Shown here in pieces: positions 4,197 to 62,379 of a stretch of 64,000 nt of DNA. The DNA lies in assembly GCF_000003815.2 (NCBI RefSeq), contig NC_049989.1, forward strand, positions 21,461,888 to 21,525,887, written 5' to 3'. Position numbers and translations under genes: made by a program. Position 1 is the stretch's first letter; each line of letters starts with the position of its first letter. The notes beneath the pieces were generated by a model. It was not told the origin of the DNA. It searched no databases and worked only from the letters and a program-made list of their open reading frames with translations. This stretch comes from Branchiostoma floridae. Lineage: Eukaryota; Chordata; Leptocardii; Amphioxiformes; Branchiostomatidae.

Positions 4197-4682
4197 TCAG
4201 ATGTCCATGATGGCTTCGTGTCTGCCATCATATGAACCATGACCTTTAACCTGTAACCTTCTGACCTCCTCCCCCAGTACACCTTGGAAGACGATGACAC
4301 ACTCAAAGGCCTTGCTGTGTCTGTAGCAACACAAGCACATTCAAATAAACCAAAGAACACTACCTCAATATAACAGAAATATTTGACAATGTCGGAACAA
4401 AGAGAGAAAGAGGCAGAAAGTAAAGGAGGCAGAGAGGGACAGATAAAAGGAAATGGAGAGAGAAAGAAGAAGATCTAAAGGAAAGGGAAAGAGAGGAGGG
4501 AGAGAGATGGGGATAGAGGGAGTAAGAACAACCATGCAGAGCGGAGCATGAGAGAGAGTGAGTAAGTGAGAGAGAGAGACTTACCGTGCCGAGAAGTTGA
4601 GTTTCAGCAGTGCCTTGTTCTGAGCAATGTGAGAGAGTGTGACGATGTGTATGTGCATGTGTGTGTGTGAGAGAGAGAGAAA

Positions 4683-4728
<46 letters not shown>

Positions 4729-5504
4729 TTGAGTGAGAGACTTACCTAGCAGAAAAGTTGAGTTTGAGTAGTGCCTTGTTCTGCGCAATGTGTGACAGCG
4801 CTCCCTGCAGCAGGCCGCTGGCCGGAGTCACCTGGAACGCCTGGTCCTTATCTCTGCTCTCTGAGGGTCAAGAGAGAAAAATTCAGTTACTGAGAAAAAT
4901 GACATTTCTTCATACCAAGCAGACTATAGTCTTTAACAAATTTATGCATCCACTGATGTTTTACTAAAGGTTGCAGTCCAGCAGCAGTCAGAAGTGTTGG
5001 GTTAGGGTCTGAGGTAGGTTTAGGATTCGGGTTCAGATTTGGGGTAAGGTCCAGGTTAGGTTAGGTTTAGGGTTAGGGTTAGGGTTAGGGTCCGGATTAG
5101 GATTAGGGTTTGAGTTTGGGTTACAGTTACCGTAAGGGTTCGGGCTCGGGTTTGCGGTTGGGGTTGGGCTAGGGTTAGGTTAAGGTTAGGGTCCAAGTTA
5201 GGTTCGGGTTTAGGTTAGGCGCAAGGGTTAGGGTGGGGGTCCAGATTAGGGTTAGGGTTCAGGTTCAGGCCAGGGTTCGGGTTAAGGTTAGGGCTAAGAT
5301 TAGGGTTAGGGTCACTAATACGAAGGTGGTAGGAAAAGGCTCAGCTGTACCGATAGTTGCAGTCCAGTAACAGTCTGAGGCGGTGGGGTTGGCGATAATG
5401 ATGTCCATCTCCCGCTCCTGTTCCACCATGCAGATGCCGAAGTCCACTGTCTCCACCGACAGGCTGATGGAGGGGATGACCAGGCTCGCCCGCAGGGGCA
5501 GGTT
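4197..5504 (-). CDS. DLEC1: DLEC1 C-terminal coding exons 31-33
   Basis: 5351-5504 encodes LPLRASLVIPSISLSVETVD, FGICMVEQ and SDCYWTATIG. 4746-4860 encodes QAFQVTPASGLLQGALSHIA and ends LLKLNFSAR. 4197-4320 encodes the terminal VIVFQGVLGEEVRRLQVKGH and GSYDGRHEAIMDI before TGA. These match the human C-terminus (VSPNSGLLE, VVEGVLGE and GQGSYDERY). Phases 1 and 2 agree across the two introns. Confidence 0.95.
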
Positions 5505-8500
5505 CTGCAGAAGGACGCATCATGCGATGAGACAAAATTTTAACCTTGACCGGAAATGTCCTAATCTAGGCCAGATCAAAACATGCTCCAAACCTTGTCA
5601 AGCTACTGATAGTCTGATGACAAAGTCACAACCTGCAGTGTACATCCAAGCTATGTCACTACATGTAGGTGGATTTGGCTCCTATTTTCAATAAAAAACT
5701 GACCTGTGTTGTGCCATTGTTGTACTCGATGACCATGTTCTGTGTGAGTGTAAGGCTCACCTGAGTTGTGCCATTGTTGAACTCGATGACCATGTTCTGT
5801 GTAAGTCTCACCTGAGTTGTGCCATTGTTGAACTCGATGACCATGTTCTGTGTAAGTCTCACCTGAGTTGTGCCATTGTTGAACTCGATGACCATGTTCT
5901 GAGTTAGTGTAAGGCTCACCTGAGTTGTGCCATTGTTGAACTCGATGACCATGTTCTGAGTTAGTGTAAGGCTCACCTGAGTTGTGCCATTGTTGAACTC
6001 GATGACCATGTTCTGTGTAAGGCTCACCTGAGTTGTGCCATTGTTGAACTCGATGACCATGTTCTGGGTGAAGTGCAGCCTCCGCTCGCCCCCGTGCCGA
6101 GTCAGCCACATCTTGTCGCCCTCCCGCCAGCCCGCCAGTTTGTCCACCAGATGCACCAGGTCCATGCTCACACGGAACGCGATGCTCACCTGGCAATACC
6201 AAAACGCAAAAGATTAAAGAGTGACCTACAACAAATGTCAAAGGTGAAAGAAATGGCCTGTGACATAGGTCAAAGGTACAAGGGACATCCTGCGACAAAT
6301 GTCAGAGGAATAACCTGCAACAAATTCAAACTATGTAATGGCTAGTTAACACCTGTATTGTGCTTTAATAGAAGTCAAAAGCAAAAGAGATGTAAGAGGT
6401 CAAAGAGAAAAGGTCACGGTTAGAAATATTTCATTTTTTTTTCATTTATCTTAAAGATGATGTACCTTCATGTTCTGCCTGGGGTTGAGTGTGTAGAAGC
6501 CGCTAGCCTGAGTACGAGCAAAGGCCCGACCTCTGACCCCTGCGACCTCCACCCCGACCAGCAGGAAGGGCGGGGTCGTGACCAGGCGGAACTGGAGTGG
6601 GGTCTCTGTCTTGTTGGTCACCGTGCACGACGTCGTCTTCAGGAACTCTGAGGACAGCTGTTCATGGAAAAAGAGTCACAGTAAGCTTCTCATTTCTACT
6701 TCCAAAAAGAGCAAGAAAAAGCAAGCTTTCCTTATCACTTTGGACAGTTTTGGACAGTATTNNNNNNNNNNNNNNNNNNNNNNNNNNNNNNNNNNNNNNN
6801 NNNNNNNNNNNNNNNNNNNNNNNNNNNNNNNNNNNNNNNNNNNNNNNNNNNNNNNNNNNNNNNNNNNNNNNNNNNNNNNNNNNNNNNNNNNNNNNNNNNN
6901 NNNNNNNNNNNNNNNNNNNNNNNNNNNNNNNNNNNNNNNNNNNNNNNNNNNNNNNNNNNNNNNNNNNNNNNNNNNNNNNNNNNNNNNNNNNNNNNNNNNN
7001 NNNNNNNNNNNNNNNNNNNNNNNNNNNNNNNNNNNNNNNNNNNNNNNNNNNNNNNNNNNNNNNNNNNNNNNNNNNNNNNNNNNNNNNNNNNNNNNNNNNN
7101 NNNNNNNNNNNNNNNNNNNNNNNNNNNNNNNNNNNNNNNNNNNNNNNNNNNNNNNNNNNNNNNNNNNNNNNNNNNNNNNNNNNNNNNNNNNNNNNNNNNN
7201 NNNNNNNNNNNNNNNNNNNNNNNNNNNNNNNNNNNNNNNNNNNNNNNNNNNNNNNNNNNNNNNNNNNNNNNNNNNNNNNNNNNNNNNNNNNNNNNNNNNN
7301 NNNNNNNNNNNNNNNNNNNNNNNNNNNNNNNNNNNNNNNNNNNNNNNNNNNNNNNNNNNNNNNNNNNNNNNNNNNNNNNNNNNNNNNNNNNNNNTCGATG
7401 TCCATGTTCAGTGTAAGTGTAAGTGTAACTTAAGCTGTCCTGTTGTTGATGTCGATGTTCAGGTTCAGTGTCAGTGTAAGTCTAACATTAGTGGTGCCAA
7501 TGTCGATCTCGATGATCATGGTCAGTGTAAGTCTAACGTTAGCTGTGCCAATGTCGATGTCGATGTCCATGTTCAGTGTCAGTGTAAGTCTCACCTTAGC
7601 GATGTCAATGTCGATCTCGATGATCATGTTCAGTGTAAGTCTCACCTGAGCTGTGTCATTGTCGATCTCGATGATCATGTTCAGTGTAAGTGTAAGGCTC
7701 ACCTTAGCTATGTCGATGTTGATGTCCATGTTCTGAGTTAGTGTAAGGCTCACCTGAGTTGTGCCATTGTTGAACTTGATGACCATGTTCTGAGTTAGTG
7801 TAAGGCTCACCTGAGTTGTGCCATTGTTGAACTCGATGACCATGTTCTGAGTTAGTGTAAGGCTCACCTGAGTTGTGCCATTGTTGAACTCGATGATCAT
7901 GTTCTATGTAAGGCTCACCTGAGTTGTGCCATTGTTGAACTCGATGACCATGTTCTGTGTAAGGCTCACCTGAGTTGTGCCATTGTTGAACTCGATGACC
8001 ATGTTCTGAGTTAGTGTAAGGCTCACCTGAGTTGTGCCATTGTTGAACTCGATGACCATGTTCTGAGTTAGTGTAAGGCTCACCTGAGTTGTGCCATTGT
8101 TGAACTCGATGACCATGTTCTGTGTAAGGCTCACCTGAGTTGTGCCATTGTTGAACTCGATGACCATGTTCTGGGTGAAGTGCAGCCTCCGCTCGCCCCC
8201 GTGCCGAGTCAGCCACATCTTGTCGCCCTCCCGCCAGCCCGCCAGTTTGTCCACCAGATGCACCAGGTCCATGCTCACACGGAACGCGATGCTCACCTGG
8301 CAATACCAAAACGCAAAAGATTAAAGAGTGACCTACAACAAATGTCAAAGGTGAAAGAAATGGCCTGTGACATAGGTCAAAGGTACAAGGGACATCCTGC
8401 GACAAATGTCAGAGGAATAACCTGCAACAAATTCAAACTATGTAATGGCTAGTTAACACCTGTATTGTGCTTTAATAGAAGTCAAAAGCAAAAGAGATGT

Positions 8501-11500
8501 AAGAGGTCAAAGAGAAAAGGTCACGGTTAGAAATATTTCATTTTTTTTTCATTTATCTTAAAGATGATGTACCTTCATGTTCTGCCTGGGGTTGAGTGTG
8601 TAGAAGCCGCTAGCCTGAGTACGAGCAAAGGCCCGACCTCTGACCCCTGCGACCTCCACCCCGACCAGCAGGAAGGGCGGGGTCGTGACCAGGCGGAACT
8701 GGAGTGGGGTCTCTGTCTTGTTGGTCACCGTGCACGACGTCGTCTTCAGGAACTCTGAGGACAGCTGTTCATGGAAAAAGAGTCACAGTAAGCTTCTCAT
8801 TTCTACTTCCAAAAAGAGCAAGAAAAAGCAAGCTTTCCTTATCACTTTGGACAGTTTTTGGACAGTATTTGAGTCCCTAAAGAGATGATTAAATATCACT
8901 TGGGACTTAGGAAGTAGTTTCTAACAGTATTTGCAAATATTTTATGATGTCAACTATAAGCCCTGACCCTGTAGTACTCAATCCCCTCCTCAGGATCACC
9001 CTACACCTGATGCTAACCCCTGACCCTTGACCTGACCATGACCTGTCCTTGCTGCATGAGGTCACTGGCTGCCGTGTAGTACACAATCCCCCCTCACCTA
9101 CACTGGATGCTAACCCGACCCTTGACCTGACCCTGACCTGTCCTTGCTGCATGAGGTCGCTGGCTGCCGTGTAGTACACCATCCCCTCCTCGTCAGCCGG
9201 TTCCAGGGTCAGCTGCGCCGGTTTGACGTGAGACGTCATCTCCAGCCGCAGGGGTGTCATGTGATACCCCTGAACCCGCGACACCTTCCCGGGCACGCTC
9301 AGGGCCACCTGCAGACAGAGAGCATCATGGGAACACGTGTTACCATAGCAATGACATATAGTAAAGATCAGAGGAATGCTTGGCTTGAATTTTTCTCTGA
9401 AACCAAAAGTTAAAGAATAATGAAGTTTTGCCAGGCTGAATACAGTATTACTAAACCTCTTTCTTTTAAACGTTTTAGAATTTTATAATTATCACATCTT
9501 GACATGATTTGTTCACAGTGGTTTTCAAGTACCGGTATGTCATGAAATTGTCATTCACAATATAAGAAAAAGCACAAATTTATGAAAACAAGTTCCCACC
9601 TTGCTGTCCAGACTCATGAAGCCCAGAGCGAAGGCATTACAGTCGATGCCGGTCTCAACATCCTGGTTATGCAGCGGCGTGAAGGTCACCTTGATGTTGC
9701 CATGGCTACGGGCCTGAATCACCAGCTGCTTGGGGGTGATGTCATATGGCTGGTTTGCCCTCTGACCCTCGTGGGGTCGTAGGTTAACCAGGACGACCTT
9801 TCTTCTCTCTGGGGCCTCCTCCTGTGGGGAGTCTGCTGGCTCCTCCTCTACTACTTCCCCCAAGCAGGCGTGGTGCCGAGGGTGTCGGGCGTCTCAAACT
9901 GCCTCCTTGGAGGCTCCTTAACCCTGCAGACATTGCACAAGGTCACACANNNNNNNNNNNNNNNNNNNNNNNNNNNNNNNNNNNNNNNNNNNNNNNNNNN
10001 NNNNNNNNNNNNNNNNNNNNNNNNNNNNNNNNNNNNNNNNNNNNNNNNNAACCTAAATGAATGAACACAGACCACCCTACAACTTTCATTTTTGATATGT
10101 GCTTTTTAATAACATGCTGGTCTGGTCCCTCTGTGGGAAGGCCTGTCCGTAGATAACCATGACTTAAGAGGCTATCCAACTGTCGCCAAGAGGAATAAAG
10201 AAACAAACAAACAAACAAACAAACCTCCGGAGGCACGATCTCCTCCCCGTTCCGGTCCCTCCGTGGGAAGGCTTGTCCGTAGCTCACCATCAGGTCCAGC
10301 AGCTGTGTGTCCTGCTGTCCGTAGTTAAAGGATTGCCAGTCCACGCGGATGTCGTGCGGACACGGGTTGTTCACGCGCATGTTCCGCACGATCGGAGCCA
10401 CGCCCGACACGTGCGTCCCGTACCGGACGACAGGCTGCTGGTCTCGGAACGCCGCCGTCATCTGGAAGTTGAGCGGGCAGCCGACGACGGTCATGCGTAT
10501 GGGGACGGACACCGGCGCAAGGTCTTTCACCTGGAGAAACACACATCCAATCAATGTACAATATCTACAAACATTTGTTCATGCCTATAGCAAAGTTATA
10601 ACACATGCATCTAAGCTGGAATAAGGTCTGGCATCTGGGTAAACACACAAAACATATGTACAGTAACAATAGACATTTCAGCACCTTGGTCATGCCAATA
10701 GCAAAGTTATAATACATGCATCTAAGCTTGCACAAGGTCTTTTACCTGGATAAACACACATCAAATCAATGTACAATAAGTACAAACATCTCAGCAACTT
10801 GGTCAAGCCAATAGCAAAGTCGTTATACATGCATCTAAGCTTGCACAAGGTTTTTATCTATGGATAAACACACATCACATAAATGTACAATAACTACAAA
10901 CATCTCAGCAACTTGGTCATGCCTATAGCAAAGTCATAATACATGCATCTAAGCTTGCACAAGGTCTTTCACCTGGATAAACAAGCATCAAATCAATGTA
11001 CAACAACTACAAACATCTCAGCACCGTGGCCATATCAATAGCAAACTAGTTATAATACATGCATCTAAGCTGGCACAAGGTCTTTCACCTGGGTAAACTC
11101 ACAAAACATCAATGTCCAATAACAATAGACATTTCAGCACTGTGGTCATGCCTATAGCAAAGTTATAATACATGCATCTAACCTGGTTATTCCTTGGATA
11201 TTCCCTATCAACCTATCAAAAATCAATCACTATCCAAACCATCAATGAATCATTTCCTGGTCGTACCTTGCAGATGAGCTGGTCGCGGTACTCCCCCCAG
11301 ATGTCGCTGTAGGAGGCTATCTCCACGGTAACGGTGTGGAACGGCATGAGCACGCCCGCGGCGGGGTGCACGAGGAACGCCGCGCCCTTCCCGTCCCGAA
11401 GCAGCGCCTGAGAGAAGTCCACCGCAGACTTGCTCGGCGTCTTGCTGAGCGGATCGGCGATGTTCGGCGTGCGGCCCAGGAGCTGACGTCTGGAACTGGG

Positions 11501-14500
11501 GGGGGCAAGAAAGGGAATACAGTCAAACCTGCCCAAGACGACCACCTGGGGGACCGGAAAAAAACGGTCGATTTGGACAGTTGGTCGCTGAAAAGAGTAT
11601 TGACTCAAAACATGACCGATGCAAAGTATAAATGGTTTCCGTTGTGTTTAATGACAAATAGCAAGCACACTGCACGCACGCAAAGAAGCGAGGTCTTTAA
11701 TGTCAAATACAACACGCACACTGTAAACTGTAAATTTAACCCCAAAATCCGACGCAAACTGGCCGATTTCGGCACAAAATCGCGCTAGTTATCATCAAAA
11801 ATCGATGAAAACCTCAATTTTGAAAATGATGCGGTCGTTATGGGTCCCAATTCGGGCCGGTCGGGGTCGCGTTGGCCAGGTGGTCGTTGAGAAAAGGTTG
11901 CATAATGCTTACGTCAATGGGAAAATAAATTGGGACAGAGAAAAAGCGGTCGAAATGGCCAGGTGGTCGCTGAGAAGAGGTGGTCGCTCGGGCAGGTTTG
12001 ACTGTACATCTGTAACCTTCAGCCTGCTGAGGTTGACGTTTTTAAATCTATGGAGATTAATTTTGACCTCTTATGCTATTTAGAACGTTCGCCATGAAAT
12101 AAAAATGGTGGAAAAATGTCAGTGATGTCATTTTTATTAATTTACGACAACCCAGTCCCCGGTCTTTGTCTGACCTCACACGTGGTCACCGCGTGTCCGT
12201 CCTTGCCTATTCACACTTCCGCCCACCGACACCGGGGCTCTCATTCTGTGTTTCGTCCGCGGGAAGCGAGGCGCACGGAGACTCGCTCCCCGGTTTTCGA
12301 CTCCAGTTGCTTTTAGTTAATTAGTCGAATTGGGAGGCAAACTCACTACTGTAAAAAAACCTTCTAGCTCCTCATGTGAAATATAATTTGTATAACAGAA
12401 TGCTCTACCTCTTTAAGATTCTAAGAATGGAAACATAAGAGTGTAAAAAATGCTGTGATTTCCTTATATAATTGAAACGATTGTGCAATAGAATTTATGT
12501 ATCTTTGGATCCGTGGTTGTATCTAATATATCTAATAAGTTTGTTTCAATTAGTGTTTCCTATCTCTATTTTATCTATGTAATCATTTCTGCTTCCACGT
12601 ATGAGTTAATGTTTGTTTATTTGAAATGCAATAAAAAAAAACACAAAAATAACACACACAATAGAACAAAACAAAACAAAGCCGTGCCAGCGCTGTGATG
12701 TTCGATCCTTACATACCACCTACCCTTTGGTAACAGGATGGAACACCCCTGCCTTCTGTCCGGGTGGGGAGGGGGGCCGCGCGTGGAAGTAGTCGACCTG
12801 GATGGAGAAGGGGGCCATGATGGCCGTGTGGTTGGTGATGTGGAGGAATCTGCGCGGGTTGCCGTGGATCTCCACATCCTTACCGAAATCCAGCACCAAG
12901 TCGCTGTTTGCATCTTCAACCCTTGAATAGAGTACAACAAGCACCAATTTAATGATAACTCCAACCCATTACTCCAACATGTAAAGTGGATATTACCTGA
13001 CATTGTGTTCCGTACCTTTAAGTTATTATGATTTCTTATCATCATTATTGTATTTCTTTGTACACTTGCAATTAGCCTGCGGGCATGAATTTTCAATAAA
13101 AGTTATTATTATTATTTACATGTCCAATCATATATTAATCTGGTTATCCTATAATTATGTTAATTATATATAAATATTATGCATATTACTGGTATCAAAG
13201 AAAAAATTATTTAGTATTAGGTAGGTATTAGTTATGATTGTAATGCACAAAAACTTGGTGGGAATTTTTGCTACGGATTCTAGCAAGGACCCATGATGAT
13301 ATCACAGGAGAAAACATTCTTCTTGCAAAGCTGGCAAACTTTGAAATATCTTCGAAACTTTCTTGCAAGACGTATCTGAGGGGTACTTGACCGTCTTCTT
13401 TGAATAGAGCGTTAATCAGCCTTTACTGATCTGTGTTGCCTTTATTGAAACCTTTATGAAAGATCTAATGAACAAAACTGTTCTTTGCATGTTATCGCTG
13501 TTACAACAAATATCTATTTTAAAACAGGAGAAAAACGCTCTTCCTGTAAAGCTTGTAGCAAACTGATCTGCCTGCCTTTCATCATAACTCTCATGCAAAT
13601 AATGTCTGGGAGGTTGGAATTCAAACTAACAACCAGTACTGTTGTTTGAATGGAGTGTTATTCACTCGTTACTACTGTATATGCAGAAATGTTCGCGGTG
13701 GATTAATGTTCGCGGTTTTCGCGGTGACCACTTCACTGCAAACTTAAAACTACCGCGAACATTTTTCTACTATGGTATTAGACTGCAGTCTATGGTGTTA
13801 CCACAAACTTAAATCCACCGCAAAAAGTCCTTTTCCCGCTACCGCGAAATTAAATCCCCGCGAACTTACATGCATTTACGGCAACTTGTGGTGCCTAATC
13901 TATAATTGAAGCTTTCATGCAGTCTGTGAGGCTGGAATTCAAACCAATGACTTTTTTAATTCTTTGAATAGGAGAGTGTTATTGTACTTACCAATCTGAT
14001 CACCCTATTCATGGATTAGTATAATTCACTGTTCCCAGTGATACTACCACTGTACAGCGAATACCCTTTTTCATTTGCAAAGATATCAGTAATCTATTCA
14101 CTACTGGCAACTCTTTTCACATGGCTTTGAAAGAATTATCAAATAGCCAATTACCATAATCACACTCTATTATAATAATATCTTTCCTTTTTCTGAGTAA
14201 TGAAGCTTTTATCATTATCAATAGTAAGAACCCATCATATTAGAAGCATTAAAGTCTTTTCAACACATGCAAAAATGCACACGTCAGTACCATTTGAAAG
14301 ATGCACATGCCATGTTGCCCATGGTAACAGTCTCACTGAACAACGGCTGTCATTACGTCCTGCTTTCAGGCCCATTGCAATCAGGTTTGGCTGGGACATC
14401 ATTTTTGCCTTTTAGTCCGCCGCTGCAGACTGCATCAAAGTCATCCACAAGTCAGGAATCTCACAACCTGCCTCAGACCAGAATCTGCTCCACCATGTTC

Positions 14501-43840: not shown

Positions 43841-44285
43841 TGTAACAGTGGGGTTCTAGCGCTGCCAAACTGACCACGCCAACAGCTCTTGAGCTTTTGG
43901 CGTTGTGGTTAGCACGTTGGATTTGTGATCCGGCTGCCCGTGTTCGGCGCGGGTTCGAATCCCGGGAGTCGGGATGTTGTTTCTTTCTGTTCTACTCGCC
44001 CCTCTGGTTGTTTCACTGGTTCCCATGCCGACCCTGTGAGTAACAGGCTAGCGGATGTGCCACACAGGGATGTCGAACTCGGAGATTCGAGGACGAATCT
44101 TGAAAAGAAAGGGGGGAGTAGTGTAACAGTGGGGTTCTAGCGCTGCCAAACTGACCACGCCAACAGCTCTTGAGCTTTTGGTGTTGTGGTTAGCACGTTG
44201 GATTTGTGATCCGGCTGCCCGTGTTCGAATCCCGGGAGTCGGGATGTTGTTTCTTTCTGTTCTACTCGCCCCTCTGGTTGTTTCA
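43841..44285 (+). mobile_element. Duplicated tRNA-derived SINE
   Basis: Two copies, 43841-44003 and 44122-44285, offset by 281 bp. The first has an A box TGGTTAGCACGTTGG (43906-43920) and a B box GGTTCGAATCC (43952-43962), in tRNA-like spacing. The second lacks six bases around the B box. The 281-bp unit including the intervening tail may be a local tandem duplication rather than two insertions. Confidence 0.75.
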
Positions 44286-45708: not shown

Positions 45709-46038
45709 ATGGATAGTTTAGTGCATGCGTCCCGAAAACCGGAGTCGAGCAACAGTGGGTTGGATTCATGTGTTCAGAGTTGCGTACCCCCCTCCCTCCC
45801 TGGTTTCGATCTCTCGTCACTAATTTCCCCTTGGCGAAGCCTGACGCCTTCTTGATGTTTTATTTCAGGTCTCAACGGTTTGCCCGATCGGCGAGGGGGT
45901 CACGGGGACAGGAAGGGCGGCCATGCGGGGCACCACGGCCACTGGCGCGCCTACAAGCTGCTGGTCGACCCGGCCCTCCAGAAGGGGCACCAGCAGAAAC
46001 TGGACAAGGTGTACCGCTACGATGGAGTCGTGCAGGGG
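45709..46038 (+). CDS. SETD1: SETD1 exons 1-2, N-terminal motif
   Basis: Exon 1 is inferred: ATG at 45709 in good context (ACGATGG), [15 protein letters not shown], donor ACA|GTGGGT in phase 1. That fits exon 2, which supplies two bases and then [20 protein letters not shown], a histidine-glycine-rich stretch as in SETD1B. Then come the conserved [19 protein letters not shown] and KVYRYDG. In the family this N-terminal region recruits WDR82. Exon 2 is secure; exon 1 rests on phase and Kozak context only. Confidence 0.75.
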
Positions 46039-52000: not shown

Positions 52001-55000
52001 GCAGCCTGAGTCTGGACTCGCGTATCGAGTTACTGTTGAAGCAGCAGAGAACGTTTCCCGCGCTCGGCGGCATGTCGCCCAGCTACAGCGAGGAGGAGAA
52101 GGGTGAAAGGTCGCCCACGCCGCCCCCCCTGGAGTCCTTCACGCCCCCTCACGACGCCTCCCCCCGCCCCCCTCCCCAGAACTCCACCCCCTCCTCACTA
52201 CAGCTTCTCAAGACTGATGACCTGCTGGAGGAAATCTCGCCCGGCTCCTTGGCAGACAGTGATGAGGACAAGAACAAGGGGAAGAGCGCTGGCAAGGAGG
52301 AGGAGGCTGTTACTATGGTTACAGACAGGAATGCTGAGGTAGGTCTTCACTTAAGGTTATTGTATGAATGTAAATTATAACAATGATTTATATAATGTTA
52401 ATGATGAGTTTTCATGCACAATATTTCAAAATTAACAAATAAACACAAAGGGAAGATATCTGGTTAACTTGAAGTTGGGAAATGACACTGAAGGTTTGGA
52501 AAATATTGTTTTTTTATCAGTATAAAAGTTATTGAAGAAGGTAAGAGACCATAGCATAGAGGAGAACATGATCTTTCATTCAGCAAGTGTAATTTCTATT
52601 TTCAATAATGTGTTTGTGTCATCTAATTCTATAGTTGTTATCTGAATACCAAAAGCCTGACTTTCTTCCCAATGCCCAGGTGGCCATAGCACACTTGATC
52701 AGTGCCTGATTTTCCCCCCAGGTGTCCACATCACAGTTTTCTAAGTGCCTGTATTTTCCCCCAGGTTCCCACCCCAGTGATGGATGAAGAGAAGGGGGAA
52801 GGCGACATGGACATCTCTTCAGGAAACGACTCGGACGACGACGACAAGATGAGTCTCTCCCCCCTCAGCAGCCCCGAACAGTCCAAACTGGTCGTCAACC
52901 CTCCCCCGACTCCAGTCTACCCCCCGAACGTACCCCCTCCGAACTTCCCGCCCCCCAACATCCCTCCCCCCATGCTCCCCAACCCCAGCGTCCCCCCTCC
53001 TAACATCCCCCCTCCCAACATTCCACCCCCCGGGATGGAACCGTCCGCCCCCTCCATCCCCCCGCCTGGCCTCCCCCCTCCCCCTCTCCCCCCTGTGTCC
53101 AGTCTCCCCATGCCCCCCTCGTCCGTACCCCCCTACAGCAGTAACTTCACCAACCCCATGTTACCCAACCAGCAGCAGCAGCACCTGGCCCGCATGGGTC
53201 TGTGGCGACCCGGCATGCACAACTACGGTAACCATGGCAACCAGCAACCCAAGGGTCCCTTCCCCTTCCCGCCTCCGCTCTCAGCCAATCAGGGCCCGCC
53301 ACGCCAGCCGCAGATGCGGGGACCGCGCCCGTTCGGCCAGGGCGCGACCTTCCGCCCGTGGCGCCCGATGTTCGACCCCACGGTGCCGCCGCCCGGATAC
53401 GTGCCGCCCGTGGAGAAGGTGAGTCTCTATGGCAACCAAGGTTCAAACAAACAAACAAGAATCTTAGGGCTGAATTCCAGATAACACAATTTAAATGTGA
53501 ACCGCTTGATACCAGAAGAGTAACACTGCCTTTCCTGGGCAACACAGAAAATGCCACCAATAACACCTTAGACAAGCATAATTCTATGTTAAAAGTGAAT
53601 GTTGTGACATACGTAATGTTTAGCTTGCATCTATATCATTTGTTGCTTTTTGCTTTCTTACTTTTTGATTACTTTTAATTGTAAAATATACTGCATTTCT
53701 GGCAATAATTGTGTTGTGTCTAGCTGTCTCCAGGACCTGTCCTTCCGTCCCGAAAATTTGCTTGTTTGGACAGAAAATAATTATAACTCACTCATCCCAA
53801 AAATGACACGAAACTGTTGAATAAAACATCTTAAACTAGAGATAGCCCTGCTAGCAGCGAGAAAGCAAACCATTCATATAAATCATCGCAGGTTGACCCG
53901 CACAAGTAGATGATTGATGGAGTGATGGAGAGGATCGTGTGGGAGCTGATAAACAACTTACTTACTTACTTACTTAGTTCGAGCTCCCGCTCGAACCAAT
54001 CCAGAGAACTTCCTCCAATGCACTTGGTCCTCCATGGCCCTTTGTAGCTCTTTGGTATCATGCAGACTTGTGTCACTACGTAGATTGTCTAGGTAGGTCA
54101 CCCTGGGTCTTCCCCTACCTCTTTTTCCTTTAGTAGTAGGCTCCCAAAGTACAAGATGGTGTTCAGGGATTTCAGGGTGTCTAACACAATGCCCAGCCAG
54201 TTTCAATCTGCGCTGTTGTATTTTCTTGGTGACTGATGGTATGTCTTGGTACAGTTGCTTGTTTGTGAGCTTTTGTTGCCATGAAACGTTTAGGCACACG
54301 CGTAACATGTGGGTGTAACAGCCATTTAACCTTTTCTCGAGTGACTTGGTTAAGGTCCACGTTTCCGAGCCATATAACAATACAGATTCCACGGTGGCAA
54401 TGAATAACCTTACTTTAATCCTGCGTGGGAGATTGGATTTCCATATCTTGTTTAGCTTGTGACAACTTTTCCAGGCAAGAGCTTTCCTGACTTCTAAGTC
54501 TGTTTCTGAACTCTGCATCATTGAGCCAAGATATTTGAAGTTTCTGACCCTTTCTACGATATCACCACTTTTGGACCGAATGATGACAGGTGTTTTCTGG
54601 TTGAAGGTCATCATTTTGGTTTTCTTAGCGTTTAGATGTAGTCCAACTTTTCCAGCTTCGTTTTCGATAAACAAACAAACAAATAAACAAACCATTCCTG
54701 TACCTCCCCCAGGTGGACCCTCACAAGCAGACGATTGATGGAGTGATGGAGAGGATCGTGTGGGAGCTGATAAACAAACAAACAAACAAACAAATAAACA
54801 AACCATTCCTGTACCTCCCCCCCAGGTGGACCCGCACAAGCAGACGATCGACGGGGTGATGGAGAGGATCGTGTGGGAGCTGAAGGAGATCATGAGGAAG
54901 GACCTGAACAGGAAGATGGTGGAGTCTTCCGCCTTCAAGGCCTTTGAGACATGGTGGGACAGGGAGGAGGAGAAAACCAAGGTGGGTAGCTTCTTAAAGG

Positions 55001-58000
55001 AGATGGAAAAATGGTAATGTCAGTTCCTGGCCTTAAGTCTTCAGAAAATCTAGATGAACTTGAAAACCATGGAGGAAAATGAAAATACTCGAATACTTAA
55101 AGTAAGTTCTGGGCCTTAAGAAAATCCAGATGAAATACATGTATAGAATTTTGGAGGAGAAACCAAGGTGGGTCACTTCTTAAAGGAAAAAGTAAACTGT
55201 TGGTTGTTTGTTTAAGACTCAGTATGATTGGTTCTTCGGATTAAACAAAATCATGATAAACATGAAAATAAAGGAAGAGAAAGCCAAGGTAGGTCATGTA
55301 CGATGTAAAGGAGAATAATAGAGCCTTCCAGAAAAAATATCAAGAAACTTAAAGAAAGTCTGTAAGTTTCCACAGACCTCAACTTAATGAAAACTTTATC
55401 CAGGTCTTGACAATTTTTTTGTGTTCAGCCTGTGCACCTCTTAAAGATGTTTTCTTCTTTTCTCCAGGTTCCCGTTAAGTCTGAAGAGAAGGACGAGGAC
55501 AAGGTCGTGGAGCCAGAGGTCAAGGTCAAACCGAAGCCGAGCAAGTCGCTGTTTGAGCAGCCGGCGGCGCTGCCCAGTATCTCCAACATGGACAGCTTCA
55601 GCCCGTTCGGACCCTCAGGGCTAGGGGGCCTTGGTCTGGGCATAAGGGCAGCCATGCCTCGGATGCCTTCCTTCAAGGTAATCCTTGTTCTTTAGAATTT
55701 CTTGAAATTAAACCTCTGATAATATGTCTGAGTGGCATCTTAAACATTATTTTCATGCTAAGTTACAGATATTAATGTTAAAAGCAAAATGCATTATTTT
55801 TCTATTTTTGATTTTTGCTAAAGCTCGGCTGACTTGTAGTCCTCTCGGTGTGGCAGCTTAGATGATACTTTTGCTCTGCTACCTGTCTGAGTGGCATCTT
55901 TGACATTACTTTTATGCTAGATTGCAGATATTAATGTAACACAATATGCAGCAATTTTCTATTTTTGAAAGAAATTCAAGACCAAAAGATGGTAGCTCAT
56001 GTAAAAAGACTAGAGTGTGATAAAGCTCTGTTGACTCGTACCTCTTGTTTCTCTGTGTGACAGCTTAGTCTTTGATTCCTTGCTCAGTTGCAGAATTTTG
56101 ATAAAAAATGCATAATTTCTCTATTTTTGAGACCAATTAAAGACACTGAAATGGCTAATAGTCATTAGGTAATTTAAATCTTTACCACACAGAATTAGCC
56201 ATTCAACTACACATTGTTAATTGGCTATGAAGTTAGCAGGTAGAAGGTGAAAAGAACTGCATGTTCTGTGATGATAATGATGATGATGTTTGTCCCCACA
56301 GATGAAGAGAAAACCCCCAGACTCCCCTGCAGCGGAGGATGGACACCCCCGTAAGAGGTCCCGGTTGGCGTCTCCCTCCATGGACGACGGGTCAGCATCA
56401 GGTAAGGCTAAGACTCCTCTGTCTTATTGGAGTGGTCCAAAACGTTACCATGGGGTAACTAGGGCATTAGGTCCAGAACCCAGAGGTCCTGGGTTGGAAT
56501 CCTGTCATGCTAACAATCCTGTTTCCTTGGGAAAGGCACTTTACACAACTTTCCTCACTCCTCACAGCTTCCTCACTCCCTTCACCCCAGGTGTAAAAAT
56601 GCATACTGACTTTGGTTCGGTAGGTAAAAGGCAGTGGAAGGAGAGGGATGGGCTCTGCCTTCTAACACTGTGCCCCAGACACAGTGGGTAACAGTCCCTA
56701 TGACCTCAAAAAGGCTACCTTTACCTACCTGCAGTACCTTTGCTGAAACAAAATATTGGCCTTAACAACATTTTTTATGTCGGTCAATGACAAACAGGTC
56801 AGGGCCAAAATACTTGTGTTCAACTTGGAACTAAGCACCTTTTGTTCACTGTTGATGCACCAGTGCACCTAGACTATTGTGTGGGCCTGGGGTGCATATG
56901 TTAAGGTACCATTGTATACTGGTATACAGAATATTCTCAACATTTGGATGTCAGAAGAGCTTTGTTGTACTACTTAGCTGTTTAGGAAATTTGAAGTTAG
57001 CATCTGTTTTTAGGTGTGGTTCACGTATTTCCAAAAACAATTTCGGGCCCTGCTTCAAGTTAGCCTGATGTTGGGAAGTTTGTTAAACATTTGTGTTTGT
57101 TTGTTTGTTTGTTTGCCAGACTCAGACGCTGACAAAGAGGACATGTTGAGCCAGGACTCAGACCTGTCGCGCCACGGGACGCCGCTGTTACGGCGGGCGC
57201 ACAGCCTGGACAGCGAAGGGTCAGAGGTCAGGGTAGCGCCACGCCCGGAGGAGGAACAGAAGAGCATCATCGAAGATGATGATGATGAAGATGGGGATGA
57301 GGAAGAGGAGGATGAGGATTATGATGAGGACGAGGACCTCGCAGAAGCTGACGGTACTTCTCATTTTGTGTGCAAGTTTTCATCTTACTATTTATGTTTC
57401 TGTGACCTTCATGGAAGGGAAACATTGCTTTTGCTACATTTCCTCTCCTCCAAACAAATAAGGTCAATGACCTGTACCAGACGTCTGTCACCATGGTTAC
57501 TCGTAATGTAGCAGACACCCTGTGGTGTTTGGTTACATGATGTAGCAACTGGCAGGTAGGAGAGAGGGGCTGGTCATCATGGACAATGAATGTGTTTGAG
57601 GAAAAATAAACAGAGCAGTAGTTTGTTAGGCTAGACATAGCATGTGAAGGTAATTATGTATTTTGCTTGCAAATGTTGCCTTTGTAGTTTTCAATTCAAT
57701 CTTCTTTTATTTTTAAAATCAAGTTCAGAGAGCATGATGTTACCATCATGAAGATGAATATGTAGCAGCATCTCTTATCCCAGAAACATCAGGCTTACCA
57801 AAGCTTGACTTCACATAATCAGCAGGCAAATTAGGGGTTTATGAAGGTTGCTTGGGTGATTCTGTAACCCATTTAGGCCATAATGGTTTGATCCACTCAA
57901 ACTGAGTAGATCCCCTATACTTTTCGTTAAGTATGGAGGAGTCTTTAACTTCTGTCTGTTTTTTCTCCAGCCTCAGATGAGGAGTTTCCTGAGGATGAGC

Positions 58001-61000
58001 TGATGGTGTCTGATGATGAGGATGAGGCTGATGATGAGAGTGAGGGGAGTGAGAGCGGGGAGGACTCTGACTCTTATCTCAGCTCCTCAGACGAGGAGGA
58101 GACACTGGCAGATGTCACGGAGACGGAACGGTGGGTCGTTTCTCCTCAAGTCTTTGTATGTTCACAACTGCTAACAAAGCTAGACAAGTTCAAGAGATGC
58201 TTTTGGTTGGCTGACAGAATATTCAGATTCTCCTCACGTACAGTTTGTATGTTCAGAACTGGGTTTCGCCTGAAGTCCTCTCTGTTCAGAACTGCTAACA
58301 AGGCTAGACATCTTCAGGATATGACTTTTGTTGGCTGAAATAAGGTTCAGAGTAATGTATCCTTGGTAACCCTGTCTCCTTGGTAACCCTGTCTCCCTAG
58401 TAACCGAGTCACCTTGGTAAGCCTGTCTCCTTAGTAACCAAGTCTCCTTGGTAACCATGTGTTTCTCCCAGTGAGTTCAGCGAGGCGGAAGACTCGGAGC
58501 AGGTTCTGGACTCGGACGCGACTCTGTCGGTCTCCCACCAGCGTTCAGCAGAGCTGGGCCAGGACCAGGCGGGGCCCAGGGTTATGGTGTCTCCTGGTCA
58601 GGAACAGGCTCAGAGGTACGTCTTCATGGTCAGGGATTGTCAGGTTATGATGCCAACTCTGTCAGTCTGTGGAGGACTACAATCCAAGGAATTTTTCTGC
58701 TCTTTAGCTGATATTCATTTATCACCTTGTCTTTTTAAAGTGCGTTTGAACTTTTTTTGACAGAGGTTCCATGATTTTTGTTCCGCAGCATCCAGCCCCC
58801 TCCAACACTGGCTGCCAGGAAACAGGGCCTAGCAACCCCGGAACACGCCTACAGCAAACAGGCTACCTCGCCCTCCGTACTGTCACCACGGTTACCATCG
58901 CCACAGTTACCGGGCGTGTTGATCCCCGGCAGCGACAGTAGGACTCTCCCCGTAGATGGAGCGACTGTCGCACACGGGGAGGACATCAGGTCTATGCTGG
59001 ATCCTCACCTCCAGCTCAGGCACCTGCACAGAATCCCCGCGGTGCCTGCAGGACCGGAGGACAGGGTCGGAGCCTCGCCTGTCCGACCCACGCTGCAGCT
59101 TCCCGAGAGGAGCGCGTTCGGGTTCATGACGGAAGCGACCGGCGCGGTGTTGCCGTCATCGCCATTCCCCATGGAGGACCTCCCAAGAACGCCGGGCGGG
59201 AACATCGACCTACCCAGAACTCCCGGGCGGGGGATGACCCTACAACTCCCGACCGACCCGGCGGCCGTTCCCGGCTTCCTGGCGCCAACACGAGCGGGAG
59301 CGACAGCCATCCCGTCGTCCCCGTGGCGTGGAATCCCGCCATCGCCCTCCACCAGCTTGCCCGTACCGTCCTTACCTCCACTCCTCGCCCAGTTCGCGGA
59401 CATCGTGACTCACGAGGCCATGCAGAGAGACGTTGTCGCCAAGGACGACAGTTCCGAACCTCCCGCCGCTCCACCGGACGCCGCGACAACGCCTCCTCAA
59501 CTTCTCGCTTCTCAGGGGAAATTTTCCATTGCCAGTTTACTCTCGCCCCAGCAGCCCGCCCGTACGGAGCCGTTACCGCCCGCCAGGCTGCATCCCGGGC
59601 TGCCCATCACCAGTGAGGAACACCTGCGCATGCTGCAGGCCAACTGCCAGCTCCCCAGGTTCCAGTCCCCGCCAAGACCTGTACAGCCTCCCGTACAACA
59701 CATGTTGCCAAACCAGGACCAGCTGCTCTCCAGAGCGAACAATCAGACGGCAAACGTCCTGGCAAACGAGCTCTTGTCCCCGTCGAAGCAGACCGTCGCA
59801 GACTTGCTCGCGGCGAGTAGAACTCTTGAGAGAGACGTCGACGTGGAAGGGAGCGATTCGGAGAAGACTGAGACGTCTTCCGAGCCGGAAGTTTCCTTGG
59901 AGGAGTCTCAGGAGCGGACGCCGCGGCAGAGAGTCTGCCCCTACATGCTGGAGCACAACTACGCAGCACCGCTTCCCGAACACAACTACGCGGCCAGGCA
60001 GCCTCCATCGCCAGCCAAGCCGTCTCTCACACACAAACAATCCAAAACACGCACAGAGGAGCCGCCTGTTGTAGCGGCTCCCCCTGTCTGTTTGCCCGTG
60101 AACATCAAGACAGAACCTCTCCCCATAGAGGACCTACCCAAAGACAAGGAAAACGAGGCGCCGATCGAAGTTAGTATTCCTTCGGTCGACTTGGTCACGA
60201 CAGAGAAGGAAGAACCCAAACAGCATCGGAAAACTGCAGAGAAGGAGAAGGAGCAGATTCTCCGAGAGCAGATCACCAACAAGATCAAGGAGGAAGCCGT
60301 GAAACCCGAGCCGCTGAGGTTCAACCCCAGAGACAACCTCATGGAGATGGAGGTTTGAACTTTGAACTTTACTCTTTAACCTTACAACTGTCATGTCACA
60401 TGCAGAATACAAAATTTGGTCAGATTTATTTAAGATAAAGAAAACCCTAACAAACTGAATAGCAATCAAATTATAACCAATATTCTACTGTTAAAAAGCA
60501 TTTTCGACCAATTACTGATGTCATCTATCCGCAATATCACGTGTTAATAAGATCACGTGTCTGTAACTCTCGCAAGTTTACATTCTAAAGGGATTGGTCG
60601 TACCTTAATCCGTACCTTTGTGTACCAACACGATGAGCTTTCATGATCATTGGTGTAACCTTGTGGTACAGGTGCAGGTCCTGTAGAATAAATACTTAGA
60701 TCAAAGTAAGATAAAGGAAACCATACTAAATGAAATACAAAATTGTTAGCAATCAATCGTCTAGAGTTCAAAACCATTACCAGGGCTTGAAATACTGGGT
60801 GCATGTGCACCCAAAATTATAGCTGTGCACCCAAATATTTTCTTAGGTTTATGTAGGAAAAGATATCAAAGTAATGTCTAGTATACGTCATATTCTTGAC
60901 ATCTAAGTGTTAGAAAGATAATAGAAATATCTGTCTTGGTACTTGTTTAAGAATTTGATAGCTTGTAACTAAGTTTTATTATTAGGTTATTACTTAAACT

Positions 61001-62379
61001 TAAGTAATGCACCCAAAAATTTCACCCAATTTTTTAAGCTGGGTGCACCAGTGCACCTAATCCCAAAAATGAATTTCGAGCCCTGCATTACAGAAAGAAT
61101 ACTGACTATTTGAGGTTGCATTACCAAAAGAATACTGACTATTTGAGGTTGAGTGAAAATACTTGGTGTAACCTCCATGTGTCCTACATGTGCAGGTCCT
61201 GTACGAGTTCCTGAAGACTGGGATCGACCTGGAGGATGTGAAATATCTGCAGAGCAGCTACGACTCCCTGCTGCAGCAGGATAACAGTGGGGTGGACTGG
61301 CTCAACGACACCCACTGGGTCTATCATCCTCATATCCTTTCAGCTCACAAACTGGCAGGAATAGCTTAATAACACAGGTTCTGAATGTTTATTATAGTGG
61401 GTCTACCATCCTCATATCCTTTCTAACTATGGGTCTGCTCACATAAACTGGCAAGAATATCATAGTAGCACAGGTTTTGGGACAGTAGAGTTTTCTTTTA
61501 CACAACCATTTAATCTAACCTGCTGATGTTTTAATGCCTTTGAGACATCTTCCTCAGAGCTTCTATCTGAAGTTCTGCTTCTCACCGCTATATGTTAAGC
61601 TGAAGAAGTTGACGCTTTTTTGCGGTATCAAAACATCACCAGATAAGACTAACTGGTTGTGTAAAAGAAAACCAGTGTACAAAATACTTTTCTGAACCAG
61701 GTTGCACAGTGTGCAACCTGGAGCAAAAACTAGGTTGCACAATTGAATTTCAAGTTGCATCACCTACAATTCACTAATTTCTGAAAAAAGGCACAAGGCA
61801 TACATGTTTGGCTGATATGAAACAGAGCTGCCTCAGTCCATTTATTTCATTCAAGTAAATTGACAACAAAATCAAGTTCTGAGGCTCAAAATCTTAAGTT
61901 GCACCCTGTGCCACCTGAGTTTAGAAGTAAGTTGCACCAAGCAAAAAGTGGTTGCAATGTGCAAGTGTGCAAGTGGGTATTTTGCACACTAGAAAACTCT
62001 ACTTTCCTATGACCTACCAACCTAATGAAATCATTTTCAGAACACTGGTTTTGCATGCATTGTTTAACACTGGTTATTTCTGTATCAGATCTTCCTGTCT
62101 TTCAAACTTCAAAATAACTGGTATTTTGTATACTTGATGAACTGCTGTATGATAGCTGCTTTTCAGCATCAGGCCAGGTTAAGTCCTTAACACGTCTCAC
62201 CAACCAGAATTCCCAACCCTCCCCGCAAGCGGCGGAAAGACGACCCGACCCTGGGGGACCACAAAACAGGCTGCGCCAGGAGCGAAGGGTTCTACAAGAT
62301 CTCCTTCAAGGAGAAGACGAAGTACCTGCACCGGGCGCGGCTCGCAAGTGTGGTGGAGAAGCCGGAGGATGATCTCATG
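45709..62379 (+). CDS. SETD1: SETD1 (SETD1A/B pro-orthologue), N-terminal ~1,776 codons
   Basis: Exons: 45709-45754, 45869-46038, 49056-49244, 49790-49973, 50558-50712, 51292-52338, 52765-53418, 54826-54981, 55468-55677, 56302-56401, 57120-57353, 57971-58130, 58472-58615, 58789-60352, 61196-61331, 62201-62379; it continues past the window. Phases agree at every junction. Known role: histone H3K4 methyltransferase of COMPASS. Seen: [12 protein letters not shown] and VYRYDG N-terminal motif, an RRM, proline-rich and acidic low-complexity regions, the [18 protein letters not shown] and [12 protein letters not shown] motifs of SETD1, EHNY motifs, [11 protein letters not shown] and [12 protein letters not shown] at the start of N-SET. 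The SET and post-SET domains are not in the window. Features of both SETD1A and SETD1B are present. Confidence 0.95.
47545..47878. mobile_element. 334-bp MITE with 5-bp target duplication
   Basis: Left end CAAGGTTGGACAAGT and right end ACTTGTCCAACCCTG are inverted repeats with one mismatch. The direct repeat AGCAC flanks both sides (47540-47544 and 47879-47883). Internal GGGCAAGTG and CACTTGCCC segments are also inverted. No coding frame. SETD1 intron 2. Confidence 0.85.
49056..50712 (+). CDS. SETD1: SETD1 exons 3-5, RRM
   Basis: Exon 3 encodes [20 protein letters not shown] and [16 protein letters not shown], the start of the RRM. Exon 4 encodes [39 protein letters not shown] and [13 protein letters not shown], the rest of the RRM. 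Exon 5 continues [20 protein letters not shown]. Order and spacing match SETD1A and SETD1B. The donor at 49974 is GTCGGT, less typical but required by phase. Confidence 0.95.
49330..49755 (-). mobile_element. LINE 3' fragment (RT C-terminus), frameshifted
   Basis: The minus strand encodes [12 protein letters not shown], then in a shifted frame [17 protein letters not shown] and [20 protein letters not shown], the usual C-terminal end of a non-LTR retrotransposon polyprotein. The stop is followed by a short (TGAG)n tail. Only the 3' ~400 bp is present. SETD1 intron 3. Confidence 0.75.
51292..53418 (+). CDS. SETD1: SETD1 exons 6-7, low-complexity region
   Basis: Exon 6 (349 codons) is proline-, serine- and tyrosine-rich. 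It carries a VPPGVPPG coding minisatellite (about 51398-51475, 15-bp units) and the conserved [14 protein letters not shown] motif of SETD1 proteins. Exon 7 (218 codons) starts [20 protein letters not shown] with an acidic cluster, as in SETD1B GDDMEISDD, then long proline runs of the PPNIPPP type, and ends [16 protein letters not shown]. The regions between motifs are probably disordered. Confidence 0.93.
52665..52764 (+). repeat. SETD1: Triplicated acceptor of SETD1 exon 7
   Basis: Three similar segments, each ending in CCCAG followed by GTG or GTT and separated by AGTGCCTG-type sequence, lie in tandem (acceptors near 52680, 52721 and the true one at 52764). The copies include a pyrimidine tract, AG and a few exon-like bases. 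Confidence 0.75.
53890..54825 (+). repeat. SETD1: Two acceptor-side copies of SETD1 exon 8
   Basis: The first ~60 bases of exon 8 ([19 protein letters not shown]) with the CAG acceptor are copied at about 53893-53950 and 54714-54770; the true exon starts at 54826. The first copy has TAG instead of CAG at the sixth codon. Each copy ends GAGCTGATAAAC and runs into an (AAAC)n linker. A LINE has inserted between the two copies. Confidence 0.92.
53957..54665 (-). mobile_element. 5'-truncated LINE with target-site duplication
   Basis: The minus strand encodes a reverse-transcriptase C-terminus: [57 protein letters not shown]. It ends with a (TAAG)n tail near 53960-53975. The direct repeat GATAAACAA flanks it (53948-53956 and 54666-54674). 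The catalytic palm is missing, so it is a dead-on-arrival copy. The clade is uncertain (RTE- or CR1-like). Confidence 0.88.
54826..58615 (+). CDS. SETD1: SETD1 exons 8-13, central conserved motif and acidic tract
   Basis: Exon 8 encodes [20 protein letters not shown] and [13 protein letters not shown], the conserved SETD1 central motif. Exon 9 ends [19 protein letters not shown] and exon 10 begins [13 protein letters not shown], matching the family LRGAIRLPSFKVKRKEPP. Exons 11-13 encode serine/aspartate/glutamate-rich sequence, including a long D/E run (about 57265-57345), that resembles the SETD1A/B acidic region. Phases 0, 0, 1, 1, 2, 2. Confidence 0.93.
55150..55300 (+). repeat. SETD1: Donor-side copies of SETD1 exon 8
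   Basis: The exon end GAGGAGAAAACCAAG with the donor GTGGGT and the following CTTCTTAAAGG recurs, diverged, at about 55155-55195 and 55273-55300. The same exon therefore has edge copies on both its acceptor and donor sides. Confidence 0.75.
56450..56730 (+). mobile_element. SINE-like repeat, copy 2
   Basis: Carries GGGTTGGAATCCTGTCATGC, GGCACTTTACACAACTTTCC, CCCAGGTGTAAAAAT and GAGAGGGATGGGCTC in the same order as 23440-23720. SETD1 intron 10. Confidence 0.6.
58345..58471 (+). repeat. Minisatellite at SETD1 exon 13 acceptor
   Basis: Six imperfect ~17-20-bp units of GTCTCCTTGGTAACC end directly at the acceptor (TTTCTCCCAG at 58471). Each unit contains GGTAA(G/C), so it resembles both a pyrimidine tract and a donor. 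Confidence 0.7.
58789..60352 (+). CDS. SETD1: SETD1 exon 14, long disordered exon with EHNY motifs
   Basis: 521 codons. It contains LPRTPGR repeats as in SETD1B, alternating S/P-rich and acidic patches, and [20 protein letters not shown] at about 59946-60005. EHNY fits the (D/E)HxY HCF-1-binding consensus, and the human SETD1A counterpart is LLEHNYA. The C-terminal part is lysine/glutamate-rich and likely helical ([20 protein letters not shown]). The donor GAG|GTTTGA is weak but is the only one giving the conserved MEMEVLYEF junction. Confidence 0.92.
60660..60690 (+). repeat. SETD1: Diverged acceptor copy of SETD1 exon 15
   Basis: GGTGCAGGTCCTGTAG resembles the true junction TGTGCAG|GTCCTGTACG at 61196. 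Neighbouring sequence around 60420-60480 and 60690-60750 is also similar to each other. A weak example of an edge copy. Confidence 0.5.
60781..61085. mobile_element. 305-bp MITE with CAGGGCT ends
   Basis: Left end CAGGGCTTGAAAT and right end ATTTCGAGCCCTG are inverted repeats with one mismatch. CATTAC is directly repeated at both borders (60775-60780 and 61086-61091). The CAGGG start suggests a hAT-like element, although hAT duplications are usually 8 bp. SETD1 intron 14. Confidence 0.85.
61196..62379 (+). CDS. SETD1: SETD1 exons 15-16 across an AT-AC intron, entry to N-SET
   Basis: Exon 15 encodes [20 protein letters not shown] and [20 protein letters not shown], matching SETD1B [20 protein letters not shown]. 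It ends in phase 1 before ATATCCTTT (61332-61340). Exon 16 starts at 62201 after CTCAC, supplies two bases, and reads [40 protein letters not shown]. No GT-AG pairing that I tried keeps this frame, while the AT-AC pairing does. Confidence 0.85.
61332..62200 (+). other. SETD1: U12-type AT-AC intron of SETD1
   Basis: 5' splice site ATATCCTTT (61332-61340) is the exact U12 AT-AC consensus. The branch-site-like GTCCTTAAC (62183-62191) lies 10-11 bases before the terminal AC at 62199-62200, the usual short U12 spacing. Splice phase 1 matches on both sides, and the joined protein continues the SETD1 family sequence. Confidence 0.85.
61398..61425 (+). repeat. SETD1: Duplicated U12 donor edge
   Basis: GTGGGTCTACCATCCTC followed by ATATCCTTTCT copies the end of exon 15 and its U12 donor about 82 bp downstream. 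The copy keeps the full ATATCCTTT motif at 61414-61422. Confidence 0.85.

Follow-up and report, generated by a model that had tools for sequence, protein, structure and literature searches.

In amphioxus, minisatellites whose tandem unit crosses an exon–intron boundary have been described under the name of mirages. According to the available excerpts of two papers, they occur in the globin genes BflGb6 and BflGb9, with Adh3 cited as a further case (PMC3087553), and in PGBD5, with Adh/Adh3 and troponin C cited (PMC3902484); the reference list of the latter points to a 2002 paper as the first report of the Adh mirages. In the same excerpts, mirages are described as not interfering with regular splicing, as reverse transcription polymerase chain reaction on the globins suggests (PMC3087553), and are likewise taken as compatible with normal splicing (PMC3902484), while the mechanism generating them is called unclear (PMC3087553). 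The copy number of the PGBD5 repeat is reported to differ between two assemblies, and re-sequencing is said to have confirmed this case (PMC3902484). Here, a stretch of 64,000 nucleotides from Branchiostoma floridae (NC_049989.1, positions 21,461,888 to 21,525,887 of the forward strand; hereafter the window) was analyzed, which contains three neighboring genes in the order DLEC1 (minus strand), UTP18 (plus strand), and the 5′ part of SETD1 (plus strand). Its exon-edge arrays are mirage minisatellites and thus belong to a kind already described in amphioxus; the amphioxus mirages named in a first-pass annotation of the window do exist in print (PMC3087553, PMC3902484).

Exon-edge arrays in DLEC1, UTP18, and SETD1

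Self-BLAST combined with the three gene models yielded 25 local repeat loci, 15 of which have a unit lying across a splice junction. Head-to-tail copies of a junction thus stand in its adjoining intron at about one junction in eight (15 of 117; 17 with two weak cases). Each unit joins part of the exon to part of the intron, with the splice site between them, and the extra copies sit in the intron. In the 15 crossing loci, unit length is between 34 and 187 bases, exceeding 160 in two of them (at 4502 and 54966). The set examined further comprises 17 junctions (the 15 crossing loci and two short copies outside the scan, at 52764 and 61318), of which 10 are donors and 7 are acceptors; together they have 63 extra copies. 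At all 17, the outer edge is carried by the copy that is contiguous with the modelled exon. The interpretation favored here, with a probability of roughly 0.6, is that these are ordinary tandem duplications from break repair, tolerated via the intact outer site, with a modest excess at junctions.

The first-pass annotation had listed about 16 such sites in the three genes and on both donor and acceptor sides. The arrays are indeed present and both sides are affected, but extra copies per site range from 1 to 13, not from one to nine as had been stated. Fourteen of the listed sites are clear: junction-crossing copies were found at all nine in DLEC1 and all three in UTP18, and at two of the four in SETD1 (acceptor 54825 and donor 54981). 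The other two SETD1 copies (52665 and 61398) are short and weak, neither being among the self-BLAST matches, and a clear site at SETD1 donor 49973 had been missed.

The scan accepted same-strand self-BLAST matches with E up to 1e-4 and spacing up to 3.5 kb, which resulted in 33 intervals; these were reduced to 25 loci by hand, by joining partner copies, merging an assembly duplicate (see below) with the locus at 7395, and dropping a hexamer tract (4992–5315). A locus was considered junction-crossing when the duplicated stretch extended 8 bases or more to both sides of the splice junction. Ten loci do not cross a junction, and a fair count has to take them in. Unit lengths and best identities were entered by hand from Tandem Repeats Finder (TRF), BLAST, and locus lists; the identity of the locus at 19866 was set at 80 by judgement (BLAST 65–67%, TRF up to 89%). 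The locus at 43841–44286, which resembles 33713–33899 and may be a dispersed repeat, was retained as non-crossing.

The gene models are the following:

33577 down to 4266 (modelled exons), minus strand: DLEC1; spliced prediction and homology
34531–42286, plus strand: UTP18; spliced prediction and homology
45869–62379, plus strand: SETD1, 5′ part; spliced prediction and Pfam

They were made with a simple self-trained spliced predictor (trained on the window) and edited by hand, with exons and splice signals inspected. The DLEC1 model matched PDB 9ijj_O, a solved DLEC1 chain, in four collinear stretches (E 2.4e-288), and the UTP18 model matched 7mq8_LS (E 7e-98). Two of the three SETD1 pieces contained Pfam RRM_1 (1.5e-8) and N-SET (3.5e-17); a Pfam search with the third gave no match. 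False exons were removed by hand using the PDB alignments, splice sites, and frames. This concerned first-model exons inside arrays (18518–18550, 27385–27424, 53892, and 54713) and one within a retroelement (54140); small unsupported exons, for example, 41236–41247, 46801, 51208, 56568, 35327, and 36367, were dropped as well. Acceptor 26927 was fixed by eye, the exon being read against the DLEC1 homologue (9ijj_O alignment). The working set has 117 junctions and 59 exons, which add up to 11,586 exonic bases; it is incomplete, as some small exons are probably missing, perhaps, for example, between 17396 and 11495. GC content is 60.6% in exons versus 40.5% in introns, and the median intron has 544 bases (n = 56 introns).

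In DLEC1, the following features were observed:

4502–4798, minus strand: donor-side duplication, donor 4746/4745; one extra copy, 83%; (CT)n/(CA)n at the copy–copy joint
5699–6761, minus strand: near-identical repeat of 7806–8869, 99.06% over 1,064 bases; abuts an N gap
7395–8176, minus strand: donor-side array, donor 8135/8134; 13 extra copies of 51/57 bases, all in frame
8967–9191, minus strand: donor-side duplication, donor 9138/9137; one extra copy, 91%
10121–10290, minus strand: partial copy (at 10121–10160) of the 3′ end of exon 10225–10530; N gap nearby
10514–11186, minus strand: acceptor-side array, acceptor 10531/10530; five extra copies, 75–80%, five of five keeping AG
18474–19788, minus strand: donor-side array, donor 19697/19696; nine extra copies of ~131 bases, nine of nine keeping GT
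23037–23228, minus strand: donor-side duplication, donor 23154/23153; one extra copy, 89%; (TTTG)n filler at the joint
24129–24477, minus strand: acceptor-side duplication, acceptor 24177/24176; two extra copies (87% and 68%), the far one without AG
26834–27614, minus strand: acceptor-side array, acceptor 26928/26927; five extra copies, 95–96%, five of five keeping AG
31386–31717, minus strand: donor-side array, donor 31699/31698; 34-base unit, nine extra copies, 72–91%, five of nine keeping GT

At 26834–27614, the true exon continues through the last copy, as judged by eye against the DLEC1 homologue. The partial copy at 10121–10290, where an (AAAC/TTTG)n tract abuts donor 10224, is absent from the first-pass list and was treated as non-spanning in the statistics. 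The stretch 5699–6761 ends at the last base before a 633-base N gap (6762–7394) and contains the array at 5704–6027. Because the stretch reaches the gap edge and is 99.06% identical to 7806–8869, this array is most likely the same locus as that at 7395–8173, and 5699–6761 most likely an assembly duplicate of it, perhaps the second allele. The array at 5704–6027 does exist, as had been annotated, but probably not as an independent site, and the two were counted once. The stretches flanking the gap hold 7 versus 14 units, for which alleles or an assembly error are possible reasons. That the arrays in general are assembly artefacts or collapsed haplotypes is hardly credible. Beside this 1,064-base repeat reaching up to an N gap, the differing PGBD5 copy numbers in the two assemblies would fit such an origin, but that case was confirmed by re-sequencing (both from the excerpt of PMC3902484); moreover, copies in the other arrays are mostly 3–38% off the functional unit (two at 19696 match it exactly), and additional tracts occur at several joints, which assembly stutter would not make.

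In UTP18 and SETD1, the corresponding features are:

39203–39692, plus strand: UTP18 acceptor-side array, acceptor 39631/39632; three extra copies (62–91%)
40197–40518, plus strand: UTP18 acceptor-side array, acceptor 40495/40496; four extra copies of ~58 bases
42270–42499, plus strand: UTP18 donor-side array, inferred donor 42286/42287; four extra copies
49950–50246, plus strand: SETD1 donor-side old duplication, donor 49973/49974; one extra copy (50093–50135), 86% over 43 bases
52701–52772, plus strand: SETD1 acceptor-side short copy, weak, acceptor 52764/52765; 30 aligned bases, 87%
53863–54883, plus strand: SETD1 acceptor-side duplication, acceptor 54825/54826; two extra copies (93% and 83%); (AAAC)n at the joint
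54966–55199, plus strand: SETD1 donor-side copy, donor 54981/54982; copy at 55153–55187, 92% over 36 bases
61311–61423, plus strand: SETD1 donor-side short copy with a weak donor model, donor 61318/61319; 26 aligned bases, 96%

UTP18 donor 42286 is only inferred because the exon after it, searched by its expected end, was not found. The SETD1 array at 53863–54883 is split within its joint by a retroelement fragment (~53957–54684) with ATAAACAA on either side, which indicates that the array is older than the insertion. The fragment contains a minus-strand open frame with only a weak DUF6451 match, below the Pfam cut-off (E 1.2e-4). We take this frame to resemble a reverse-transcriptase protein.

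Other repeats and elements were noted in the window. In SETD1, a 21-base minisatellite of ~60 copies (62393–63653) starts 14 bases downstream of donor 62379, an intronic repeat (58138–58351) starts 8 bases after donor 58130, and about six repeats of a 17-base unit (58356–58460) end 11 bases before acceptor 58471. DLEC1 introns contain a degenerate TTAGGG-type, telomere-like tract of ~43 hexamers (5054–5312) and a plus-strand open frame (14228–15298), the 3′ end of which lies within a 117-base tandem array (15186–15803); its match to 7tm_1 is weak and falls short of the Pfam cut-off (E 1.1e-5). The first UTP18 intron has inverted C/G-rich repeats with a GCGATCTCGC-like core (35242–36407). Two stretches of ~120 bases in introns of different genes (13760–13879 and 41892–42012) are 90% identical and likely represent a dispersed mobile element.

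Copied splice sites and growth of the arrays

The dinucleotide GT or AG is kept in 58 of the 63 extra copies; elsewhere in these alignments, 210 of 260 GT/AG dinucleotides are kept (P = 0.04, the copies being non-independent). Thus, the copied sites are mostly undecayed; given the weak signal and the relatedness of the copies, selection on them is not claimed. At 12 of the 17 sites, the score of an inner copy equals or exceeds that of the functional site (generic matrix), so site strength alone does not choose between them. Splicing at the nearest copy would shift the frame at 12 of the 17. By its geometry, the real site gives the shortest exon, and the functional site is therefore likely picked by exon definition.

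In 8 of 10 multi-copy arrays, copies become less similar to the functional unit the farther they lie from the exon, although only two of these trends are individually significant (rank correlation −0.87 at 8134 and −0.89 at 19696). In the former (7395–8176), the seven exon-near copies are 98–100% identical to the functional unit and the six far ones 73–87%; in the latter (18474–19788), identity falls from 100% beside the exon to 89% at the far end. In the remaining two arrays, similarity rises with distance (0.2 at 10530; 0.87 at 26927, within a range of 95–96%). The position of the junction in the unit fits a uniform distribution (exonic share between 0.09 and 0.91, mean 0.47, 15 sites; Kolmogorov–Smirnov P = 0.69). 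No fixed break point is therefore visible, which is as random break points would give.

These observations suggest the following course of events. A short tandem duplication (~35–190 bases) would begin in the exon and end in the adjoining intron, most likely when a staggered break is repaired by end joining or when replication slips. The original exon edge would be left intact on the outer side, and the extra edge would land inside the intron. Splicing would still use the site joined to the rest of the exon, which also gives the shortest exon, and because this outer site is usable, the duplication allele would be nearly neutral. Unequal exchange would expand some of the duplications into arrays of up to 14 units, the far copies of which would tend to decay. 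Duplications wholly within exons would mostly be purged by selection, which leaves introns and junctions as the places where duplications are seen.

It would be different if the copies were selected for, as splice decoys or, in the DLEC1 array at 7395–8176, as variable protein segments. There, all 13 inner donors are in frame with the functional one, whose score 10 of them share, and no stop interrupts this frame until a TAG that follows the first four extra copies; copy number could alter protein length if the inner donors were used. However, with units of 51/57 bases, all copies share one frame once one does. As this single unit frame accounts for all copies, coding selection is not claimed. 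Frames are mixed at other sites, and retention of GT/AG is only slightly above the control, which makes selection for the copies highly improbable.

The excess at junctions and its possible causes

A growing array pushes exons apart without overwriting them, which makes placement of units the right null. Single units were therefore placed, with arrays collapsed to one unit and only non-coding or single-junction positions allowed. Under this null, 5.6 of the 25 loci are expected to cross a junction, and 15 do (P = 2.7e-5). Restricting the count to gene bodies, which is also the count without 43841–44286, gives 15 of 24 versus 6.3 (P = 1e-4). With ten additional short-unit TRF loci, it is 15 of 34 versus 6.5 (P = 2.5e-4), and 12 of 34 when the three least certain loci are scored as non-spanning (P = 0.013). 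The outcome of a test on TRF rows alone (entered by hand, the 5702 row being excluded as the assembly duplicate) depended on what was placed. Among rows with a period of at least 30, 10 of 15 cross a junction, versus 2.1 by unit placement (none of 3,000 simulations reached 10) and 7.0 when whole arrays were placed (P = 0.07); among non-coding rows with a period of at least 15, 10 of 27 do, versus 2.3 (none of 3,000) and 8.7 (P = 0.33), respectively. When probes were compared instead, a strong local copy was found, at the strictest of four score cuts, for 15 of 117 probes at junctions and for 42 of 790 in introns or intergenic sequence (Fisher P = 0.004). This contrast is lost at the loosest cut (19 of 117 versus 97 of 790, P = 0.24); the probe test is cautious, since some of the 42 positive probes are second copies of junction duplications. 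The fold excess ranges from 2.3 to 2.7 in the main counts, is 1.8 in the strict one, and 4.8 for TRF periods of at least 30 placed as units. Thus, the statement that the copies are far more frequent than chance placement would give is only partly borne out: there is an excess, but it is about two- to threefold, in a window chosen for showing the pattern, and by itself it names no cause.

Three observations weigh against ordinary duplication plus tolerance as the full explanation. The excess itself (15 of 25 versus 5.6) is not predicted by pure tolerance, and neither is that among loci with at least 85% identity, 8 of 12 of which cross a junction versus 2.45 expected (P = 4e-4). Moreover, of 18 non-coding microsatellites, 8 are no more than 35 bases away from a junction versus 2.0 expected (none of 1,000 placements; arrays collapsed). 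One possible, if tentative, answer is survivorship: duplications would originate evenly, but those on junctions would last or stay visible longer, because selection removes deletions that reach the functional exon, and because change is slow in that half of the unit which is functional. Indeed, when junction-crossing loci are given twofold survival odds, the expectation rises to 10.1 of 34 (P = 0.035), and with threefold odds to 12.5 of 34 (P = 0.2). Persistence of the excess at 85% identity and above, where decay should matter least, speaks against it.

The same persistence, and the fact that the excess remains two- to threefold after unit length and purging have been allowed for, would instead fit a mutational process acting at exon edges, such as breaks, polymerase stalling at the shift in base composition, or R-loops, with AAAC/TTTG or CT tracts as filler. 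The step in GC content (0.606 in exons versus 0.405 in introns) is in line with this, and so are the short-repeat tracts: of seven independent AAAC/TTTG tracts, six are found no farther than 31 bases from a junction (P = 1e-5, the test having been chosen after seeing the data), and in three of four cases inspected by eye (4745, 23153, and 54825; 19696 is the exception), the inner joint has a longer tract than the outer flank. The longer joint tracts would fit end-joining filler, albeit post hoc and in small numbers. However, five of the eight junction-near microsatellites lie in or beside junction duplications (the remainder gives 3 of 13), as do four of the six AAAC/TTTG tracts (the others alone give 2 of 3, P = 0.03), so this is mostly the same signal again and not independent support. 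Furthermore, the junction position in the unit is compatible with a uniform distribution and shows no focus, the significance of the excess varies with counting choices, and the window was chosen because of the pattern. An exon-edge process is thus unlikely to be the cause; that the duplications are tied to splice junctions by such a process, as proposed in the first-pass annotation, is unsupported, because significance hangs on the way of counting and a threefold survival advantage absorbs the excess. The roughly two- to threefold excess left over by the favored interpretation could stem from mutation, from survivorship, or from chance, the window having been picked for its pattern.

Sequence shared between arrays was looked for as well, as a unit at dispersed sites would be expected of an Introner-type or mobile element. 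Within this window, only 10 of 136 same-strand self-matches span more than 3.5 kb. Four of these join two junction arrays (18747–19578 and 54667–54844; 64–66%) at their AAAC tracts, with which this sole apparent sequence link between arrays coincides, and the remaining six involve no junction array. A mobile element common to the arrays is thus unsupported by the distant self-matches in the window.

A more far-reaching proposal, which we consider quite doubtful, is that exon edges are hot spots of tandem duplication, possibly because of breaks where a GC-rich exon meets an AT-rich intron; repair filler would then make minisatellites and microsatellites mark junctions, and about one junction in eight would carry duplicated sites from which alternative splicing and new introns could draw. 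If that density held genome-wide, splice sites that compete and are often identical would form a very large natural collection, which would offer a direct test of how the spliceosome chooses its site, as well as a standing source of new introns.

Comparison with known systems

The arrays share most features with the published mirages, as far as the excerpts of PMC3087553 and PMC3902484 describe them. The tandem unit crosses the exon–intron boundary (here at 15 of 25 loci and two weak ones), on the donor or the acceptor side (here 10 and 7 sites), and most copies keep AG/GT (here 58 of 63). Unit length, given as 10–160 bases in PMC3087553, is 34–187 bases here, with two units above 160. Divergent end units, reported for mirages, also have their likeness in the arrays described here; the allelic differences in copy number reported for them may have a counterpart in the 7 versus 14 units on either side of the N gap, which could equally be an assembly error.

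Two further systems are related. The boundary-crossing duplication in potato RdRp (excerpt of PMC4974935) resembles those of the window, but gave rise to a new intron there, and none is shown here. Fill-in by Pol alpha-primase followed by end joining may be a mechanistic analogue, in that it makes short tandem duplications at breaks with complementary 3′ overhangs; that work concerns induced breaks, with human and mouse cells named in its section headings, and its abstract names no link to splice junctions (PMC8355091).

Among the matches listed, none announced a genome-wide survey of mirages in its title or the start of its abstract. In contrast to the published mirages, which the excerpts describe for single genes, those of the window occupy 15 (17 with the weak ones) of 117 junctions in three adjacent genes. 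What the window adds is this density, a null in which non-fitting loci are counted too, an additional site, a probable artefact, and the short-repeat lead.

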